DNA from: an uncultured Lachnospiraceae bacterium
GTDB taxonomy: Bacteria; Bacillota_A; Clostridia; Lachnospirales; Lachnospiraceae
Length of the DNA: 6,542 bases
Reading direction: 5' to 3'
NCBI GenBank assembly: GCA_946529195.1
Contig: CAMMZE010000059.1
Location: forward strand, 1-6,542
This document shows, piece after piece, positions 1 through 6,542 of the stretch (position 1 is the first letter of the stretch; the number at the start of each line of letters is the position of its first letter). Made by a program: the position numbers and the translations under genes. Under the pieces are notes generated by a model that was given only the letters and a program-made list of their open reading frames with translations, searched no databases and was not told where the DNA came from.

Positions 1-791
1 CCGCCGGTAAAAGACTGGCGGATAATCTCCAGAGACTCCGGAAAACGCACATAACCGGGACAGACGGTTACCGTCACCCGTTCGTTCTGTTCTGTCACAG
101 GATCCTCAGAAGCAGCCATCTCTTCGCGGGGCATAGAAAAACTGACGCCGTAGGCATTGGCAATCGTATCCAGCATGCCCAGAGTGCGCTGATAGTGCAT
201 CTCATTTCCCACGGCTGCCCCGCCGCTCATAATGAAATACCGGTTTCCTGTCTTTTCCCTGATAAAATACCTGGCCATATCCGCGCCGGCCTCAAACTCG
301 AAGGGCTTCCCCGGTCCGAAAATGCCGAGAAACCAGGGATTATCCTCCACCGCTTCAAATGCCTCCGATGATACTGTTCCGGATGCCAGCAGGTAGTAGG
401 CGCCCCTTTCCTCGCAAAGCGCCACCTCTGCCTCCAGATCATGGGACAGAAAAGACAGAAAGCCCTCCACACCGTCATCACATGCCTTCCGGATAAAATC
501 CAGTTCCTCTTCCTCGGAAGAGATCGAGCCGGAGTACACAAAGCTGACCATCTCAAAATTTGAAGCAATATAGTCCTCCAAATAGGATCGGAAGCCCTGC
601 ACCTCATCATTTTGGGTATTATATACGATCACCCCCAGCTTGTGGGGGGATATATCTGCCGGGACATAGCTTTCTGTCCCTTCCGCGGCAGGCTGAGACT
701 GATCTGCCTTAGATGCACAGCCTGACAGGAAAGTCAGGACAAGGCACATGGCCAGCAGGCGCCGGACCAGGCTGCATTTCCTATATTTCAT
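1..791 (-). CDS. Type 1 periplasmic-binding-like lipoprotein, 3' end cut by window
   Basis: The reading frame is open from an ATG at 791 to the window edge: 263 codons, no stop, so the C-terminal part is missing. The N-terminus is a lipoprotein signal: a KYRK/RR-containing basic start, a hydrophobic stretch, then the lipobox L-S-G-C with the lipidated Cys at residue 25. A polar linker follows to about residue 50. The mature part alternates strands and helices as in type 1 periplasmic-binding (LacI/sugar-binding-like) proteins: a first strand near LGVIVYN (52-58), then DGVEGFLSF (106-114), GAYYLLASG (130-138) and a segment around 165-215 resembling the interdomain region of that fold. It starts 6 nt after the stop of the upstream ATPase gene and is probably in the same operon. 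GGAGG at 803-807 lies 11 nt before the ATG; an in-frame TTG at 794 would be 8 nt away. Fold assignment is by pattern only and the ligand is unknown. An accessory binding protein or sensor for the importer is an inference. Confidence 0.8.
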   Translation of the reverse strand, partial: MKYRKCSLVRRLLAMCLVLTFLSGCASKADQSQPAAEGTESYVPADISPHKLGVIVYNTQNDEVQGFRSYLEDYIASNFEMVSFVYSGSISSEEEELDFIRKACDDGVEGFLSFLSHDLEAEVALCEERGAYYLLASGTVSSEAFEAVEDNPWFLGIFGPGKPFEFEAGADMARYFIREKTGNRYFIMSGGAAVGNEMHYQRTLGMLDTIANAYGVSFSMPREEMAASEDPVTEQNERVTVTVCPGYVRFPESLEIIRQSFTG

Positions 792-797
792 CAATGA

Positions 798-1766
798 TTA
801 TGCCTCCTTTCCAAACAGATGGCAGGCAATTTCATGGCCGGGTTCCATTTCAGTCAAAACGGGTTTTTTCTCCTTGCAGATCGGCATACATTTATCGCAC
901 CGATCCTGGAAGGGACATCCCCGCGGCACATCCAGCGGGCTGGGCGGTTCTCCCTTGATGGGCTCTATTTTCTTTGAAAAGTCCATCTTCGTGTCGAAAA
1001 CGGAATTAATCAGTGCCCGGGAGTAAGGATGGCAGCAGACCGCCTCCATATGGTCTCCCGGCATGACCTCTACCACATTGCCCAGATACATCACGGCAAT
1101 CTGATGGGCAAAGGACTGGATAAGTCCCAGATTGTGGCAGACAAAGCAGATTGTCAGATTCTTTTCCCTCTGCAGCTTTGTGATCAGCTCGATAATGGTT
1201 TCCTGGACCGAAACATCCAGCGCGCTGGTGGCCTCATCCATTGCAATGATCTCAGGCTCCAGTGCCAGCGCTCTGGCGATGGCTACCCTCTGGCGCTGTC
1301 CGCCGGACATGTTGTGGGGGAAGCGGTCAGCAAAATCCTCAGGCAGCTCCACCATGCGCAAGAGTTCCCGCGCCTTGGCGTCCCGCTGGCTCCTTTTGAT
1401 TTTTCCGTAGTTCAGCAGGGGTTCGCAGACGATGTCCCGTACCTTCATCTTCGGATTGAATGAGGTCGTAGGATCCTGAAAGACCATCTGGATATGCTGC
1501 CGCATGTCATGCAGGTGCGCTCCCTTTATGCGGGTTATATCCTCTCCCCTGTACCAGATTTCTCCCTCTGACGGTCTGTCCAGCCAGACCAGAAAACGCA
1601 TAAAAGTACTCTTACCGCAGCCGGACTCCCCCACCAGCCCCAGGGTCTGCCCTTTGTACAGTTTCAGGTTGACATCATTGCAGGCAACCAGCTCCCGGCC
1701 GCCGGCTGTGGGGAAACGGCGGGTAATGTGTTTTGCTTCCACCAGCAGATCCTTTTCATCAAACAT
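798..1766 (-). CDS. Peptide/nickel-type ABC importer ATPase, DppF/OppF class
   Basis: Cytoplasmic nucleotide-binding subunit of 322 aa, the usual size for DppF/OppF proteins. All ATPase motifs are visible: Walker A GESGCGKST (46-54), Q-loop FQD (96-98), signature MSGGQRQR (153-160), Walker B IIAMDE (173-178), D-loop SALD (181-184) and switch histidine H211 in the sequence CHN, where most relatives have SHD. After the ATPase core comes the C-terminal oligopeptide-transporter domain (about 235-322) with the family cysteine cluster: C284, C290, C297 and C315, plus an additional C293. Related importer ATPases bind an iron-sulfur cluster through such cysteines; whether this one does is inferred. 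The ATG overlaps the stop of the preceding ATPase gene by 8 nt (1759-1766) and has a GGAGGG site a few bases upstream, so the two are probably translationally coupled. It should pair with the 262-aa ATPase as a heterodimer. Substrate is not determined by this subunit. Confidence 0.95.
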   Translation of the reverse strand: MFDEKDLLVEAKHITRRFPTAGGRELVACNDVNLKLYKGQTLGLVGESGCGKSTFMRFLVWLDRPSEGEIWYRGEDITRIKGAHLHDMRQHIQMVFQDPTTSFNPKMKVRDIVCEPLLNYGKIKRSQRDAKARELLRMVELPEDFADRFPHNMSGGQRQRVAIARALALEPEIIAMDEATSALDVSVQETIIELITKLQREKNLTICFVCHNLGLIQSFAHQIAVMYLGNVVEVMPGDHMEAVCCHPYSRALINSVFDTKMDFSKKIEPIKGEPPSPLDVPRGCPFQDRCDKCMPICKEKKPVLTEMEPGHEIACHLFGKEA

Positions 1767-2547
1767 AACGTTTCCCTCCGAGTGATGGTACCGCTCCGAT
1801 CAGTTTTCTCGTGTAGGCATTCTCCGATTGCTCCAGGATATATTCCCTGTTGCCCTGATCCTCGATCTGCCCATCCTTCATCACCACCAGCCAGTCTGAC
1901 ATGTAGGCAGCCAGTCCTATATCATGTGTGACAATGATGATCGCAGTACCGTATTCATCCCGCAGTTCCATCATCTGCCTGGCGATCTGGGCCTGGGTAG
2001 TCACATCCAGCGCACTGGTCGGCTCATCGGCCAGCAGGAGCTTTGGTTCATAGGTCATGCCCATGGCAATGCCCACGCGCTGCCGCTGTCCGCCGGACAG
2101 CTGGAACGGATAGGAATGCATGATGCGGTCCGGGTCCGGCAGCCGCATCCGTCCCAGCATCTCGGCTCCCTTTTTCCAGGCTGCGTCAGCAGATATGTTT
2201 TCATGGGTGCGGATATACTCCACATAGCTTTTCCCGATCAGCCGGGTCTGGTTCATCATGGCGCCGGAATCCTGAAAGATCATGGAAATATCATGTCCCC
2301 GCAGGGAACGCCATGCTTTGGTGTCCAGAGAGAGCAGGCTGCGGCCGTCGTAATTGATCTCTCCGGCGGACACGTGCCCTTTTCCCGGAAGCAAACCCAT
2401 GACTGCCCGGATGACAGTGGTCTTTCCGCTGCCGCTCTCGCCGACAATCGCGCAGATCTGGCCCTGATTCAGGGAAATGGAGCAGTCTCTGACCGTCAGC
2501 TGCCTGCCGTAGGAAATATCCACATGGCTGATTTCAAGTAATGCCAT
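1759..2547 (-). CDS. Peptide/nickel-type ABC importer ATPase, short NikD/DppD class
   Basis: Second nucleotide-binding subunit, 262 aa. Motifs: Walker A GESGSGKTT (36-44), Q-loop FQD (91-93), signature LSGGQRQR (150-157), Walker B LLLADEP (170-176), D-loop SALD (178-181) and switch histidine H208 in THD, so it looks catalytically intact. It stops soon after the ATPase core and lacks the C-terminal cysteine-bearing oligopeptide-transporter domain of typical DppD/OppD (about 320 aa or more). This makes it closer in size to NikD of the nickel importer. After the Q-loop it reads SGAMMNQT, where most relatives have a P-x-T-S-L-N-P-like segment; this region contacts the permease coupling helices. 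The ATG is 5 nt after the permease stop, with GGGGAGG just before that stop as ribosome binding site. The 3' end overlaps the next ATPase gene by 8 nt. Together the two ATPases power one importer. Confidence 0.95.
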   Translation of the reverse strand: MALLEISHVDISYGRQLTVRDCSISLNQGQICAIVGESGSGKTTVIRAVMGLLPGKGHVSAGEINYDGRSLLSLDTKAWRSLRGHDISMIFQDSGAMMNQTRLIGKSYVEYIRTHENISADAAWKKGAEMLGRMRLPDPDRIMHSYPFQLSGGQRQRVGIAMGMTYEPKLLLADEPTSALDVTTQAQIARQMMELRDEYGTAIIIVTHDIGLAAYMSDWLVVMKDGQIEDQGNREYILEQSENAYTRKLIGAVPSLGGKRYV

Positions 2548-2552
2548 CTGAC

Positions 2553-3389
2553 TTACCTCCCCTCGTCGCTGTGCGGATCCAGAATGTCGCGGAGCCCATC
2601 GCCCAGCATATTAAAAATGACAACTGTGACAAAGATCGCAAGTCCGGGGAAAATCATCAGCCAGGGGGCAGACTGCATGAAGTTGCGTCCCTCATTCAGC
2701 ATGGAACCCCACTCCGGACTTGGCGGCTGGGCACCAAAGCCCAGGAAGGACAGGGCAGCCAGCTCCATCATCATTCCGCCTATATCTGTAGCGGCCGTGA
2801 TCACCAGTGTGGTGATGGCATTTGGCAGCATATATTTCCACAGCATATACGGGGTTCTGGAGCCGGTGACCGTGGCGGCTGCCACAAAATCCGTGTGCCG
2901 GATCTTCATGACCAGGCTTCGTGCCAGCCTGGCATACTTGGGCCAGGTGACAACCGCAATGGCGATGATGGCATTTTTGGTGCTTGCGCCCAGAATACCT
3001 GCCACGGCAATGGCAAGCACAAGACCCGGGAAAGCAATCATCATATCAGCAATACGCATGATCACAGCATCCACCATTCCGCCGAAATAGCCCGCCAGAA
3101 TGCCCAGGAAAGACCCTATGACAAAAATAACGCCCACCAGAATAAAGGTAGAGGACAGGGAGGTTCTGGCACCGTAAAGCACACGGGCAAAGATATCACG
3201 TCCCATCTTGTCCGTTCCGAAGGGATGCGCGGCGCTGGGCGGCATGATGGAATCTGCCAGATTGCCGGCCGTCGGATCAACGCCGCCGGAGAGCACAGGG
3301 GCAAAAATGGCAGCAAGCACCAGCAAAACCGCCAGAATCGCAAAAATTACAAATACCGGATATTTTTGAATAAAGCGCTTTCTCTCCAT
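2553..3389 (-). CDS. Importer permease, DppC/NikC class
   Basis: Inner-membrane channel subunit of the binding-protein-dependent importer, 278 aa from ATG 3389, normal for DppC/NikC. The N-terminus is basic (MERKR) and leads into one hydrophobic segment (about residues 10-34). An extracytoplasmic stretch with the class-typical sequence HPFGTDKMGRDIFARVLYGA follows. Further hydrophobic segments lie roughly at 80-105, 107-140, 190-212 and 235-260. The cytoplasmic EAA-type coupling loop is FVAAATVTGS...LPN (about 168-190), which docks on an ATPase. Two starts are possible: a GTG at 3398 that overlaps the upstream TGA as GTGA (281 aa), and the ATG three codons later. The GAGG at 3401-3404 sits only about 2 nt from the GTG but about 11 nt from the ATG, so the ATG is preferred. 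It works as a heterodimer with the permease encoded just upstream. Confidence 0.93.
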   Translation of the reverse strand: MERKRFIQKYPVFVIFAILAVLLVLAAIFAPVLSGGVDPTAGNLADSIMPPSAAHPFGTDKMGRDIFARVLYGARTSLSSTFILVGVIFVIGSFLGILAGYFGGMVDAVIMRIADMMIAFPGLVLAIAVAGILGASTKNAIIAIAVVTWPKYARLARSLVMKIRHTDFVAAATVTGSRTPYMLWKYMLPNAITTLVITAATDIGGMMMELAALSFLGFGAQPPSPEWGSMLNEGRNFMQSAPWLMIFPGLAIFVTVVIFNMLGDGLRDILDPHSDEGR

Positions 3390-3394
3390 ATGCT

Positions 3395-4333
3395 TCACCG
3401 CCTCAGTCTCATGCGCGGATCAATATAGTTATAAGAAATATCCACCAGAAGATTAATCAGCATATATATGACAGCCACCCAGAGCACATATCCCTGGATC
3501 AGATAATAATCATAGGAAGTGATGGCTGAAACAGCCAGATTGCCCAATCCCGGATATGAGAAGATAACCTCCACGACACTGGTGCCTCCCAACAGTGAGC
3601 CGATGGAAAGTCCCAGCATGGTGATGAGCGGAAGCAGGGAGTTGGGAAATACATTGCCCCACAGAATCTTCCAATAGGCGACACCCCGCGCCTGGGCGCC
3701 GGTCACGTAATCAGAGTGCAGCTCTTCCAGTACCGCCGTGCGCACCTGTCGGGTATATTTCGCAGACATGGCCACGGCCAGGGTGACGGCCGGGAGGATC
3801 ATGTCCTTAAAGCCGCCTCCCGAAGATACCACCGGCAGCAGACGCAGGCGCACACAGAACAGGAGCACCAGCAGAAGGCCTACCCAGAAATTGGGGATTG
3901 AGACGCCGAAGAAAGTGATGGCTCTTACGATATAATCAACAGGTTTATCATGATAAACAGCCGACAGCACACCCAGAGGCACCGCAATCAGCAGCATCAG
4001 CACCATTGCCATCAGCGCCAGCTTCAGCGTGGGCCAAAGCCGTGCCAGAAGCAGTGTCACTACAGGTTTCCCGAGAGAAAAGGATGTGCCGAAATCCCCC
4101 CTCAGACAGTTGCCCAGCCAGCGGACATACTGGGTGACAAAGGGATCATTCAATCCCATCTCTTCCCGCTGCATTTCCACCTGTTCCTCGTCCGGCATCA
4201 GTCCCTGCGCCAGGTACATATTGCGCACAGGATCACCGGGTGATATATAGGTCAGCAAAAAAGTAATGATGCTGATACCTATGAGAACAATCAGCATTTG
4301 CAGCAATCTGGATACGATCTGCTTTCTGCCCAT
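3395..4333 (-). CDS. Importer permease, DppB/NikB class
   Basis: Inner-membrane channel subunit, 312 aa, normal length for DppB/NikB. Start is ATG 4333 (MGRKQIVSRLLQ), 8 nt after a clean AAGGAG. The frame stays open further upstream, but that sequence is the intergenic hairpin and is not protein-like. The first hydrophobic segment (about 9-30) runs into SPGDPVRNMY, a hallmark of this class. An extracytoplasmic region with GLNDPFVTQYVRWL and LRGDFGTSF follows. Further hydrophobic segments lie about 100-125, 134-160, 178-195, 232-255 and 279-300. The EAA coupling loop is YVTGAQARGVAYWKI...FPN (about 209-231), followed by the typical VEVIFSYPGLGNL and the C-terminal YNYIDPRMRLR. The gene starts 129 nt after the binding-protein stop, and its own stop abuts or overlaps the next permease start, implying co-translation. 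It shows no sign of decay. Confidence 0.95.
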   Translation of the reverse strand: MGRKQIVSRLLQMLIVLIGISIITFLLTYISPGDPVRNMYLAQGLMPDEEQVEMQREEMGLNDPFVTQYVRWLGNCLRGDFGTSFSLGKPVVTLLLARLWPTLKLALMAMVLMLLIAVPLGVLSAVYHDKPVDYIVRAITFFGVSIPNFWVGLLLVLLFCVRLRLLPVVSSGGGFKDMILPAVTLAVAMSAKYTRQVRTAVLEELHSDYVTGAQARGVAYWKILWGNVFPNSLLPLITMLGLSIGSLLGGTSVVEVIFSYPGLGNLAVSAITSYDYYLIQGYVLWVAVIYMLINLLVDISYNYIDPRMRLRR

Positions 4334-4384
4334 GTTCTTCGCTCCTTCCCCTATTTTCATTGCAAAACCAGCCGGCTCATCCGG

Positions 4385-4432
4385 AACCGGCGCAGACGTC
4401 CGGAGGCAAGACAAACCTCCGGACGCCCGGTT
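4385..4432 (-). promoter_or_regulatory. Intercistronic hairpin between binding-protein and permease genes
   Basis: A perfect 10-bp inverted repeat (CGTCCGGAGG 4397-4406 against CCTCCGGACG 4416-4425) encloses a 9-nt loop. It is flanked by a second pairing block AACCGG (4385-4390) against CCGGTT (4427-4432), with an asymmetric internal loop. In the transcript it lies about 30 nt after the binding-protein stop and 50 nt before the permease start. Only TTTT in a GC-rich setting follows, so it is a poor intrinsic terminator. Hairpins here commonly protect the upstream message or partly attenuate read-through, giving more binding protein than membrane subunits. That role is inferred. Confidence 0.7.
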
Positions 4433-4462
4433 TCTGTCTCAGGTTGCCAGATCGGCCGGCTG

Positions 4463-6022
4463 TCACTCTGCCGGTACGATCTCAGTGGTAATCCAGTAAT
4501 AATCAGCGGTGTGTATGTGGGCATACCCGACATTTTTGGAGTAAGCCATGGAGCTGTTGTAATAGCCATCCACGATGACAGCGGCATCATCGATCAGAAT
4601 CTGCTGCATCTGCTTCAGGAGATCCGCACGGGTCTCGGTATCTGCGGTTTCAATAAAGGTCTCATACAGGGCATCATACTCATCATTCTGATAGCCGCAG
4701 TAATTGGATCCGCTGGGGCCATACCAGTTGGCCATGTATTCTGTGGGATCGCCATTACCCACCGTGGTCCAGTTGTTGTTGTCCAGATCATAGTTAAAGG
4801 TAACCAGATCATTCCAGCAGTCATCGGAAGAACCGTAGGCAGAGGTTACGCCGATGCCGATCTGGCTCAGATACAGGGTGTGGGCATCAGAGAAATCGTT
4901 GAGCAGGCGGTTCTCATAGGAGGAATAGCGCAGGTTGATATCCACGCCGTCAATCTCACGGATCCCGTTACCGTTGGTGTCCACAATGCCGGCCTCATCC
5001 AGAAGAGCGGCAGCGGCATCCGGATCATACGCATAGGGATTGTTCAGCTCGTCATAGCCGTAGGCAAGGGTGCTGGGAAGCACTGAGAAGCCGGCCGTAT
5101 ACAGACCGCCGATGGTGTTGGATCCGCAGATGGTCTCATTGTCAATAGCCATCAACATAGCCTTGCGCAGAGCGTCATTGCCCAGTATACCCTTGAAGTT
5201 TATCCAGCTGAATCCGCAGCGCACGCCGGAGGCGATATCAACCGTATAATTATCATCTTCCTGCAGCTTCTGCAGATCTGCGACATTGGTGATGTTCTCG
5301 ACCAGATCCACCTGTCCTGCCTGCAGAGCATTGGCCTTTGCGGAAGCATCGCCCATGAAAGTGATCTCTACCTTGTCATAGGGAACTTCGCCATCCCAGT
5401 AATTGGGGTTCTTGGCCATGGTGAAGCCTACCAGGTCTGTGTGGGACTCCACCATATAGGGGCCTGTGCCGATAACAGCCGTATCAAAATCCTCGGTATC
5501 AGCTACATCGATGATGGCCATGGTGGGGTAAGCCAGATTACCTGTCAGGTTGTAGTCGGGCTGGGGCAGGGTAATGGTAACGGTGCCTGCTTCATCATCG
5601 GCCTCTACCTCTGCTTCAAAAGCCAGGAACTTCTGCGGATTGGCAGATCCGTTCTGGCCTTCCTCGCGGACCCAGTCCAGGGATTCCTTGACCTTGCTGG
5701 CCGTCATCTCTGTGCCGTTGGAGAAGGTGACCCCGTCACGGATCTTGATGGTCCAGACAGTGGAATCCTCATTGACCTCATAGGATTCTGCCAGCCACGG
5801 CTCAATCTCCATGTTGTCGTTGAACTTGAACAGGGCTTCGCTGACACCAAATCGCATGCAGTTCCAGCCGGTGTTTGTCTGAGAAGCCGGATTGATCAGA
5901 CCGTCCGAATACATCTGACACCCAAAGGTCAGCACCTTCTCATCGTCCGCCCATGCGTTCCCGGCAAAAAGCGTGGTTGACAGCATGGCTGCTGCCAGAA
6001 TTAAAGACACCTTTTTCTTCAT
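4463..6022 (-). CDS. Family-5 extracytoplasmic solute-binding protein (NikA/DppA/OppA-like)
   Basis: Substrate-capture subunit of the importer, 519 aa, normal for SBP_bac_5 proteins. ATG 6022 is chosen because GAGGAG (6031-6036) lies 8 nt upstream and the protein then begins with a signal peptide: MKKK, a hydrophobic core to about residue 20, and a likely signal peptidase I site after A-W-A (25). There is no lipobox cysteine; the first Cys is C35 in the mature chain. Family signatures include EALFKFNDNMEIEPWLAESYE (62-82), WTIKIRDGVTFSNGTEMTASKV (90-111), GTGPYMV (185-191), FTMAKNPNYWDG (200-211) and an EF-hand-like loop DTNGNGIREIDG (348-359), common in this family. A later open frame upstream to 6115 is not protein-like and is rejected. 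As first gene after the riboswitch and leader it should be the most directly controlled. The ligand cannot be read from the sequence. Nickel, peptides and oligosaccharides are known for the family; cobalt or a corrinoid-related ligand is suggested only by the riboswitch. Confidence 0.95.
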   Translation of the reverse strand: MKKKVSLILAAAMLSTTLFAGNAWADDEKVLTFGCQMYSDGLINPASQTNTGWNCMRFGVSEALFKFNDNMEIEPWLAESYEVNEDSTVWTIKIRDGVTFSNGTEMTASKVKESLDWVREEGQNGSANPQKFLAFEAEVEADDEAGTVTITLPQPDYNLTGNLAYPTMAIIDVADTEDFDTAVIGTGPYMVESHTDLVGFTMAKNPNYWDGEVPYDKVEITFMGDASAKANALQAGQVDLVENITNVADLQKLQEDDNYTVDIASGVRCGFSWINFKGILGNDALRKAMLMAIDNETICGSNTIGGLYTAGFSVLPSTLAYGYDELNNPYAYDPDAAAALLDEAGIVDTNGNGIREIDGVDINLRYSSYENRLLNDFSDAHTLYLSQIGIGVTSAYGSSDDCWNDLVTFNYDLDNNNWTTVGNGDPTEYMANWYGPSGSNYCGYQNDEYDALYETFIETADTETRADLLKQMQQILIDDAAVIVDGYYNSSMAYSKNVGYAHIHTADYYWITTEIVPAE

Positions 6023-6235
6023 GTTCTTTTCTCCTCTTCTGCTTAACAGTTTGCTGATATTTTCACACAGACACCTCTTCTGCGTATTCAGGACCACTTC
6101 TCCGTCATACGGCACTGCGGCTCATCGTTTCTGTCCCACCTGTCATCTACAGGTTGTATAGGAAAACAGATAGTTGTTCGGATCGCTCCGGGCTGTACTG
6201 AACAAGCTGCCGCTCCGGTACTTTTACTGCATAAA
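6023..6235 (-). other. Untranslated leader between terminator and first gene
   Basis: This 213-nt stretch between the terminator and the binding-protein start holds no convincing gene. It contains the ribosome binding site GAGGAG (6031-6036), a small inverted repeat ACCTGT/ACAGGT (6138-6143 and 6149-6154, 5-nt loop) and two copies of CGCTCCGG on the plus strand (6184-6191, 6211-6218). I found no well-spaced promoter in it, so first-gene transcription probably depends on read-through from the riboswitch promoter. Confidence 0.6.
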
Positions 6236-6280
6236 TAAAAAGCGGTCTGCCCTCGCCATAAACGAGTGCAGACCGTTTTT
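6236..6280 (-). terminator. Intrinsic terminator downstream of B12 aptamer (likely expression platform)
   Basis: On the minus strand CGGTCTGC pairs with GCAGACCG (8 bp). After one A-G mismatch, CTCG pairs with CGAG around a 7-nt loop. The stem runs directly into C-TTTTT-A-TTTAT, a proper U-tract. It lies about 60 nt after the aptamer's 3' end and before any gene, the expected place for a ligand-controlled attenuator. AAAAA precedes the stem, so the element is symmetrical and could also stop plus-strand transcription. I did not find a clear long antiterminator pairing, so ligand control of this hairpin is inferred from position. Confidence 0.8.
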
Positions 6281-6341
6281 CGCACCAAAAAAACATCCGA
6301 AATCCGTATTCCAAAAAAACCGTGGAACAAATGGATAAAAC

Positions 6342-6503
6342 GCAGGCAAGTCTTCTGGCTCATGGGTCATCGCTCCGGCCGTCTTCCCAGTCTTTCAACC
6401 AGTGACACATTGGCCTTTGCTCTCCAAATACAGCGGCGGCTCCGCACGGGATTTTCACCCGTTTCCTTTTTCAACCTCTCCTGCAGGAAAGGATACCTGT
6501 GCA
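6342..6503 (-). ncRNA. Cobalamin (adenosylcobalamin) riboswitch aptamer
   Basis: Read on the minus strand, the conserved core of the cobalamin aptamer is present in order. P1 5' strand is CAGGT (6495-6499). A P2 hairpin follows: CCTTTCCT against AGGAGAGG (6475-6492). Next are AAAAAGGAA and the short hairpin ACGGG-TGAAAAT-CCCGT (6446-6462), then GCGGAGCCGCCGCTGTA (conserved form GCCACTG; here GCCGCTG at 6431-6437). GTCACTGG (6399-6406), CTGGGAAGACGGC and GCGATGACCCATGA come next, and finally the B12 box AGCCAGAAGACTTGCC (6345-6360), whose ACTTG closes P1. These features match the RF00174-type family. Such elements normally reduce expression of B12 synthesis or cobalt/corrinoid transport genes when adenosylcobalamin is abundant. 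The outer boundaries are good to a few bases. Confidence 0.96.
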
Positions 6504-6510
6504 ATAACAC

Positions 6511-6538
6511 TCTATCATACAAACAGCTCCGGCGTCAA
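6511..6538 (-). promoter_or_regulatory. Candidate sigma-A-type promoter for the riboswitch-led operon
   Basis: Minus-strand TTGACG (6533-6538) is a good -35 match. Downstream, TATGAT (6514-6519) matches the -10 consensus at five of six positions, but the spacer is only 13 nt. GATAGA (6511-6516) has a 16-nt spacer but a weaker match. Either would start transcription about 6504-6508, right at the 5' edge of the aptamer, which supports a promoter here. Exact elements are uncertain and the window ends 4 nt beyond. Confidence 0.4.
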
Positions 6539-6542
6539 GATT

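Follow-up and report, generated by a model that had tools for sequence, protein, structure and literature searches.

We analysed a 6542-nt stretch of DNA from an uncultured Lachnospiraceae bacterium (contig CAMMZE010000059.1 of assembly GCA_946529195.1, positions 1 to 6542; the whole stretch is referred to as the window), in which a cobalamin riboswitch stands in front of a peptide/nickel-type ABC importer operon. All elements of the operon lie on the minus strand. The aptamer (6515-6328) is followed by the genes of a family 5 substrate-binding protein (SBP; 6022-4463, 519 amino acids, SBP_bac_5), a permease of the Opp2B/NikB type (4333-3395), a permease of the Opp2C/NikC type (3398-2553) and two ABC ATPases, the first of 262 amino acids (2547-1759, ABC_tran) and the second of 322 amino acids with an oligo_HPY tail (1766-798, ABC_tran and oligo_HPY). 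A preliminary description of this DNA had reported a complete SBP-permease-permease-ATPase-ATPase set behind the aptamer with no gene between, and this was borne out: in the region between the aptamer and the SBP gene we found no plausible gene, the open reading frames there overlapping the aptamer or sitting on the opposite strand. The operon is longer than the five genes then described, as a sixth co-directional gene (gene 6) follows the last ATPase.

The aptamer matched the cobalamin family RF00174 over the full length of the model (positions 1-189) with 118.3 bits, well above the gathering score of 31.5 (E 4.7e-30), which confirms a cobalamin aptamer upstream of the importer on the same strand. 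Its edge had been placed at 6503, which drops 12 bases relative to the RF00174 end at 6515. Between the aptamer and the SBP gene the operon strand carries a hairpin resembling an intrinsic terminator (6275-6243), with a 15-position stem containing one mismatch and nine G-C pairs, a loop of 3 and the T-rich tail CTTTTTATTT at 6242-6233. Folding of the RNA from 6345 to 6180 gave a z value of -2.97. A consensus terminator scan of the window placed each of its three sites on the opposite strand and none on the operon strand. Our own scan of related loci, made on the 59 in which the riboswitch lies within 1.7 kb of the SBP gene, found a terminator-like hairpin at most 260 bases after the riboswitch in 49, compared with 3% of first-order simulated sequences. 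The aptamer and the terminator-like hairpin together predict a response to corrinoids, and the segment 6275-6233 would be the expression platform, bound corrinoid switching transcription off.

Both permeases (Pfam BPD_transp_1) passed the cut-offs of NCBIfam Opp2 models: Opp2B with 386.1 bits (cut-off 350; scanned from 4339) and Opp2C with 328.5 bits (cut-off 300). Against the NikB and NikC models (TIGR02789 and TIGR02790) their scores stayed under the cut-offs. The SBP matched 11 NCBIfam models, in every case below the cut-off. The best of these was Opp5A_nikA, with 216.8 bits against 600; the NikA model TIGR02294 gave 148.7 bits against 393 and the CntA model 94.9 against 800, so that none of these cut-offs was reached. 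The best fold match of the SBP was Staphylococcus aureus NikA with a Ni-histidine type ligand, and the second-best PDB sequence match was 3m8u, the molecule name of which is Heme-binding protein A, although in the title of the entry it is a glutathione-binding protein. The SBP keeps a DppA-like GDP motif. This motif and the SBP_bac_5 family would suit a peptide or nickel importer that had come under B12 control through a B12-dependent pathway and not through the supply of metal or corrinoid, for example one importing peptides as a methionine source; we consider such a role improbable.

The preliminary description had taken a short NikD-like ATPase as a weak sign of a metal importer, and this sign proved not to be specific. 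The models scoring best with the 262-residue ATPase were CntF and CntD, both at about 218 bits where 385 and 380 are required, NikD was lower (211.6 bits, cut-off 318.7), and every score against the CntF, CntD, OppD and NikD models was below the cut-off. None of the six window proteins matched a CbiM-type S unit. The signature of BtuFCD, a Peripla_BP_2 binding protein with a FecCD permease, was absent from the window importer, which has SBP_bac_5 and BPD_transp_1 instead. The signal peptide of the SBP (6022-5945) has an AWA-D site and no lipobox cysteine. By a simple pattern, an AxA-type signal peptide site and no lipobox cysteine were seen in all 20 of the window SBP and its 19 best homologues listed (P0001-P0020), and a lipobox was found in 92 of the 121 SBP sequences examined. 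A binding protein without a lipid anchor is odd for a Gram-positive lineage.

Gene 6 encodes a lipoprotein and is cut by the window edge, running from 794 (TTG) or 791 (ATG) to 3 on the minus strand. It starts 3 or 6 bases, respectively, after the last ATPase and is preceded by AAGGAGG. Comparison with Pfam, NCBIfam and PDB sequences gave no convincing match to a known family: among 27 members, one showed Peripla_BP_4 at an E value of only 0.0077, and the traces of DUF7096 (three members, best E 0.0018) and DUF3568 (two members) look like chance. The structure model of a full-length relative has the fold of the type I (sugar-type) periplasmic binding proteins. Gene 6 shares this fold with the RbsB/AraF-type sugar-binding proteins but differs from them in that it has no adjoining sugar-type permease or ATPase, travels with a Nik-type importer and has no convincing match to a sequence family. 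Ten contexts of weaker gene 6 homologues had such a gene between a double-length ATPase plus a permease-sized gene and another permease-sized gene, with BLAST similarity to gene 6 at 26-30% in nine of them; Pfam confirmed a sugar-type transporter in L108, the single context examined in that way. Gene 6 is present in every locus with an SBP identity of 79% or more to the window protein, of which there are eight (L001-L006, L025, L045).

Relatives of the operon were collected by one contig scan with 23 aligned SBPs; 124 loci were confirmed, and the best 80 were analysed. By record title they come from Clostridia, mostly Lachnospiraceae, Oscillospiraceae and unnamed Clostridiales, and are mostly metagenome-assembled genomes (MAGs); Blautia schinkii and Acetitomaculum ruminis are examples of cultured carriers. 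The importer genes adjoin one another where the contig permits, mostly in the order A-B-C-D-F and sometimes as B-C-A-D-F or with A last. The order B-C-A-D(-F) was seen in L072, L094, L096-L098, L101 and L102; Rfam found no riboswitch in the first of these loci, which belongs to Anaerobutyricum hallii DSM 3353. Walking along the loci with an nhmmer model, and allowing cluster genes between riboswitch and importer, we found that the riboswitch precedes the importer unit in 63 of the 80 loci and is absent from nine; eight could not be assessed because of contig ends. The preliminary description had raised the possibility that orthologous operons generally lack the riboswitch, which these 63 of 72 assessable loci contradict. 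The nine riboswitch-less loci were searched again with Rfam and gave no RF00174 match.

Some loci have a more elaborate arrangement. Back-to-back divergent cobalamin riboswitches occur in L029 (6778-8774), L073 (6759-8773), L051 and L068, and in the first two a gene of the MATE family lies behind the outward riboswitch. A LysR-type regulator is encoded between riboswitch and importer in L069 (7569-8778) and just upstream of the riboswitch in L024 and L090.

Genes on the same strand within 4.5 kb of the importer were clustered and searched for a second time. Each family took its name from the Pfam and NCBIfam matches of one or two representatives; small clusters were left unannotated. The co-directional cluster includes gene 6 in 35 of the 80 loci, a cytosolic AstE/AspA-type hydrolase in 32, a MATE protein in 31, a heavy-metal P1B ATPase in 30, a small HMA protein in 19 and an ArsR regulator in eight; LysR regulators and BtuFCD-like genes are less frequent neighbours. 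The hydrolase residues H52, E55, H139, N103 and N105 are conserved in at least 95% of 25 sequences. Single linkage at 35% identity joined these 25 hydrolases in one group, gave two groups of MATE proteins (19 and 10 of the 31, with two left single), and divided the P1B ATPases (the 24 longer ones of 32) into a group of 21 and three singles. The gene directly behind a riboswitch is that of the hydrolase in 10 loci, gene 6 in L035 and L036, the P1B gene in L040 and L043, and the MATE gene in L066; L029 and L073 also have a MATE gene in this position, in divergent orientation. In L040 (5786-8800) and L043 (2623-5853) the P1B gene lies between the riboswitch and the importer, so that an exporter-type pump would be made together with the importer under B12 shortage. 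Two further loci, L018 (4619-8027) and L074 (1025-4380), carry BtuFCD-like genes with their own cobalamin riboswitch directly upstream of the operon riboswitch; those of L018 had F420-0 transporter and BtuC as best NCBIfam models, all below cut-off, and those of L074 were recognised by similarity only.

To relate the operon to corrinoid synthesis we scored cbiD, which was present in 72 of the 79 carrier genomes. The same gene was scored in 298 genomes sampled evenly from a single family, with completeness 90 requested; 175 of these genomes have cbiD. Carriers in this sample were called by an SBP match at E 1e-120, our own threshold, with four candidates scored per genome listed. All 21 carriers had cbiD, as did 154 of the 277 other genomes (Fisher p 1e-5, not corrected for kinship), so that the co-occurrence with cob/cbi genes which the preliminary description had proposed to survey is seen for cbiD in this sample. 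Ten of the 21 carriers lie outside the genomes of the 80 loci; nine of these ten have the riboswitch, one of them only at an nhmmer E value of 1e-07, and eight have a same-strand MATE gene nearby. Among these eight, the MATE gene of G243 is on a second contig that apparently continues the operon, and that of L097 lies 1.7 kb past the hydrolase gene.

B12 control and a cargo related to cobalt or corrinoids are well supported, because 63 of 72 assessable loci retain the riboswitch and the operon tracks cbiD in the family sample. The import of cobalt, a cobalt-chelate or a corrinoid precursor under B12 control, as first proposed, stands to this extent, and the presence of cbiD in all 21 family-sample carriers favours cobalt over corrinoid as the cargo. 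We think it probable that this is a B12-repressed operon for the import of cobalt in one form or another. The substitution of CbiMNQO by this operon was considered and rejected, as the two co-occur more than expected. As a rough rule of our own, a CbiM open frame of less than 320 amino acids was taken to mark the cobalt type; in a check of this approach such a CbiM occurred in 60 genomes of the family sample, 58 of which have cbiD. CbiM of any length was found in 39 of the 79 carriers.

The SBP could alternatively take up cobinamide, cobyric acid or another corrinoid precursor, the AstE/AspA-type enzyme trimming an amide side chain as CbiZ does. The B12 riboswitch would fit this, as would the 3m8u match with its heme-binding molecule name and the five of 79 carriers, one of them not titled MAG, that have neither cbiD nor cbiC. 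It sits poorly with cbiD in every carrier of the family sample, with the metal-handling P1B, HMA and ArsR neighbours, and with BtuFCD-like genes, which stand beside the operon with a riboswitch of their own in two loci and occur also in G030, the genome of Pseudoflavonifractor sp. MSJ-30. On balance a corrinoid importer seems unlikely to us.

The computation itself shows the riboswitch and the hairpin, which gene families are present and how they are linked, and that the operon co-occurs with cbiD; the direction of regulation, the cargo and each step of a possible ligand cycle are our inference. When corrinoid is plentiful, the aptamer would bind it and the downstream hairpin would end transcription. 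When corrinoid is short, the SBP, the two Nik/Opp2-type permeases and the two ATPases would be made and would bring in cobalt for corrin-ring synthesis. We prefer cobalt bound to a small organic ligand over the bare ion as the imported form. Gene 6 may serve at the cell surface as an accessory receptor that was taken over from a sugar importer. In the relatives, the cytosolic hydrolase might cleave the imported ligand and free the metal, the MATE protein might export the ligand, and the P1B ATPase with its HMA and ArsR partners might expel wrongly imported metals. Taken together these steps would form a B12-repressed cobalt-chelate shuttle, a 'cobaltophore' cycle of gut and rumen Clostridia, in which a small amide-containing chelator is exported, recovered as the cobalt complex by the Nik-type importer with gene 6 as a second binding protein, and cleaved; we put this forward tentatively and hold it to be less likely than not.

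Within the cobalt reading, a real possibility is a simpler importer of the ordinary Nik kind for Co(II) or Co-histidine. The MATE protein, the hydrolase and gene 6 would then belong to the B12 regulon without being related to the importer, and there would be no chelate cycle. The permease class, which is common to nickel importers, and the fold match to S. aureus NikA with its Ni-histidine type ligand agree with such an importer, as do the lack of a conspicuous ligand-synthesis gene and a window that holds the importer and gene 6 only. It leaves the linkage of two MATE groups to be explained, and that, in 32 of 80 loci, of a single hydrolase family with only 24 matches across 20 carriers selected from the 79 genomes.

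A number of observations weigh against cobalt as the cargo or against the chelate cycle. The short CbiM is enriched in carriers, occurring in 14 of 21 as opposed to 44 of the 154 other cbiD genomes (p 0.001). Seven of the 79 carriers lack cbiD; two of them have cbiC and five have neither, and in the four of these that are titled MAG incompleteness may be the reason. The fifth, G030 (locus L032, not titled MAG), keeps the riboswitch, the importer and the MATE gene; another of its riboswitches is followed, at a distance of about 2.3 kb, by BtuF/C/D-like genes, and a corrinoid or mixed role fits this genome better. The nickel-histidine site is mostly not conserved in the SBP: at the columns of the E. 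coli NikA site residues R97, R137, W398, Y402 and H416 it has P, a gap, T, G and G, the positions being approximate at about 21% identity. Among other pocket positions Y22 is conserved. The same 20 carriers contain 24-69 MATE domain matches per genome (the single MATE protein scanned gave two stretches), and because MATE genes are so numerous their linkage is partly background and weaker evidence than that of the hydrolase. No ligand-synthesis gene stands out within the 4.5 kb searched, no neighbour family other than the named ones, regulators and BtuFCD-like genes occurring in more than three of the 80 loci; synthesis genes could lie elsewhere. The P1B, HMA and ArsR genes may often be separate units. 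Of the 32 P1B cluster members 22 show CPC rather than SPC, the motif of cobalt pumps; neither motif is seen in the remaining 10, which include several fragments. The hydrolase, MATE and P1B genes, finally, are not present in the window itself, which holds the importer and gene 6 only.

The P1B ATPase as a cobalt-specific pump identified by an SPC motif was unsupported, the motif being CPC wherever one is visible. A further locus of G030, L119 (2764-6001), contains a third riboswitch followed by another family 5 SBP gene, and the end of a MATE gene lies immediately upstream.

The core of the operon has precedents, which makes it less novel than the preliminary description implied. According to the part of PMC2667541 that we consulted, a B12 riboswitch had been predicted upstream of NikABCDE of Clostridium tetani and Desulfitobacterium hafniense, which were named as exceptions to nickel specificity with cobalt as the implied cargo; in an extract of PMC9600662 the cobalamin riboswitch of Sporomusa ovata nikA was used in experiments. 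These operons, compared here by their descriptions, have a cobalamin riboswitch before a Nik-type importer gene, as here, and in the same extracts there is no mention of gene 6 or of a neighbouring hydrolase, MATE or P1B gene. Cobalamin regulons include 12 orthologue groups for cobalt transport (PMC3766115, in part), and cobalt importers were reviewed in the consulted sections of PMC7689651 without this cassette. The latter sections describe B12-riboswitch control of cbtJKL and of many cobalt transporters; CbtJKL and CbiMNQO thus share this control with the operon and belong to different transporter families. The passages seen of PMC6593275 added nothing on the cassette. Among the open-licence matches listed, with no review of the literature on the hydrolase, MATE or P1B families themselves, we did not find the cassette (hydrolase, MATE, P1B with HMA/ArsR, gene 6) described, nor a published case of a MATE gene with a cobalamin riboswitch; Rodionov 2003 and 2006 may list further cases. 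The core is therefore known, and the cassette with gene 6 is a variant that we did not find described.

Two further kinds of known importer are also close to the operon. With the NikABCDE/Opp2 nickel importers it shares permeases that pass the Opp2B/Opp2C cut-offs and an SBP fold nearest to S. aureus NikA, and it differs from them by an SBP far below the NikA cut-offs, by NikA site residues that are mostly not kept, and by the B12 riboswitch. CntABCDF, the staphylopine importer, and other importers of opine metallophores are likewise family 5 systems for metal-chelates. An exporter gene lies near the Cnt importer, as a MATE gene does in the relatives studied here. The operon differs from Cnt by the low CntA score of its SBP (94.9 bits where 800 are required), by clusters in which no synthesis genes were seen, and by B12 control.

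Automated annotation labels these genes as peptide or nickel importers. The gene 6 lipoproteins, which matched no Pfam family convincingly here, gain a suggested role. If the operon does belong to a cobalt-chelate system, it would make a cobalt-specific metallophore accessible to genetics, and likewise the competition for cobalt among the B12 makers of the gut and rumen.

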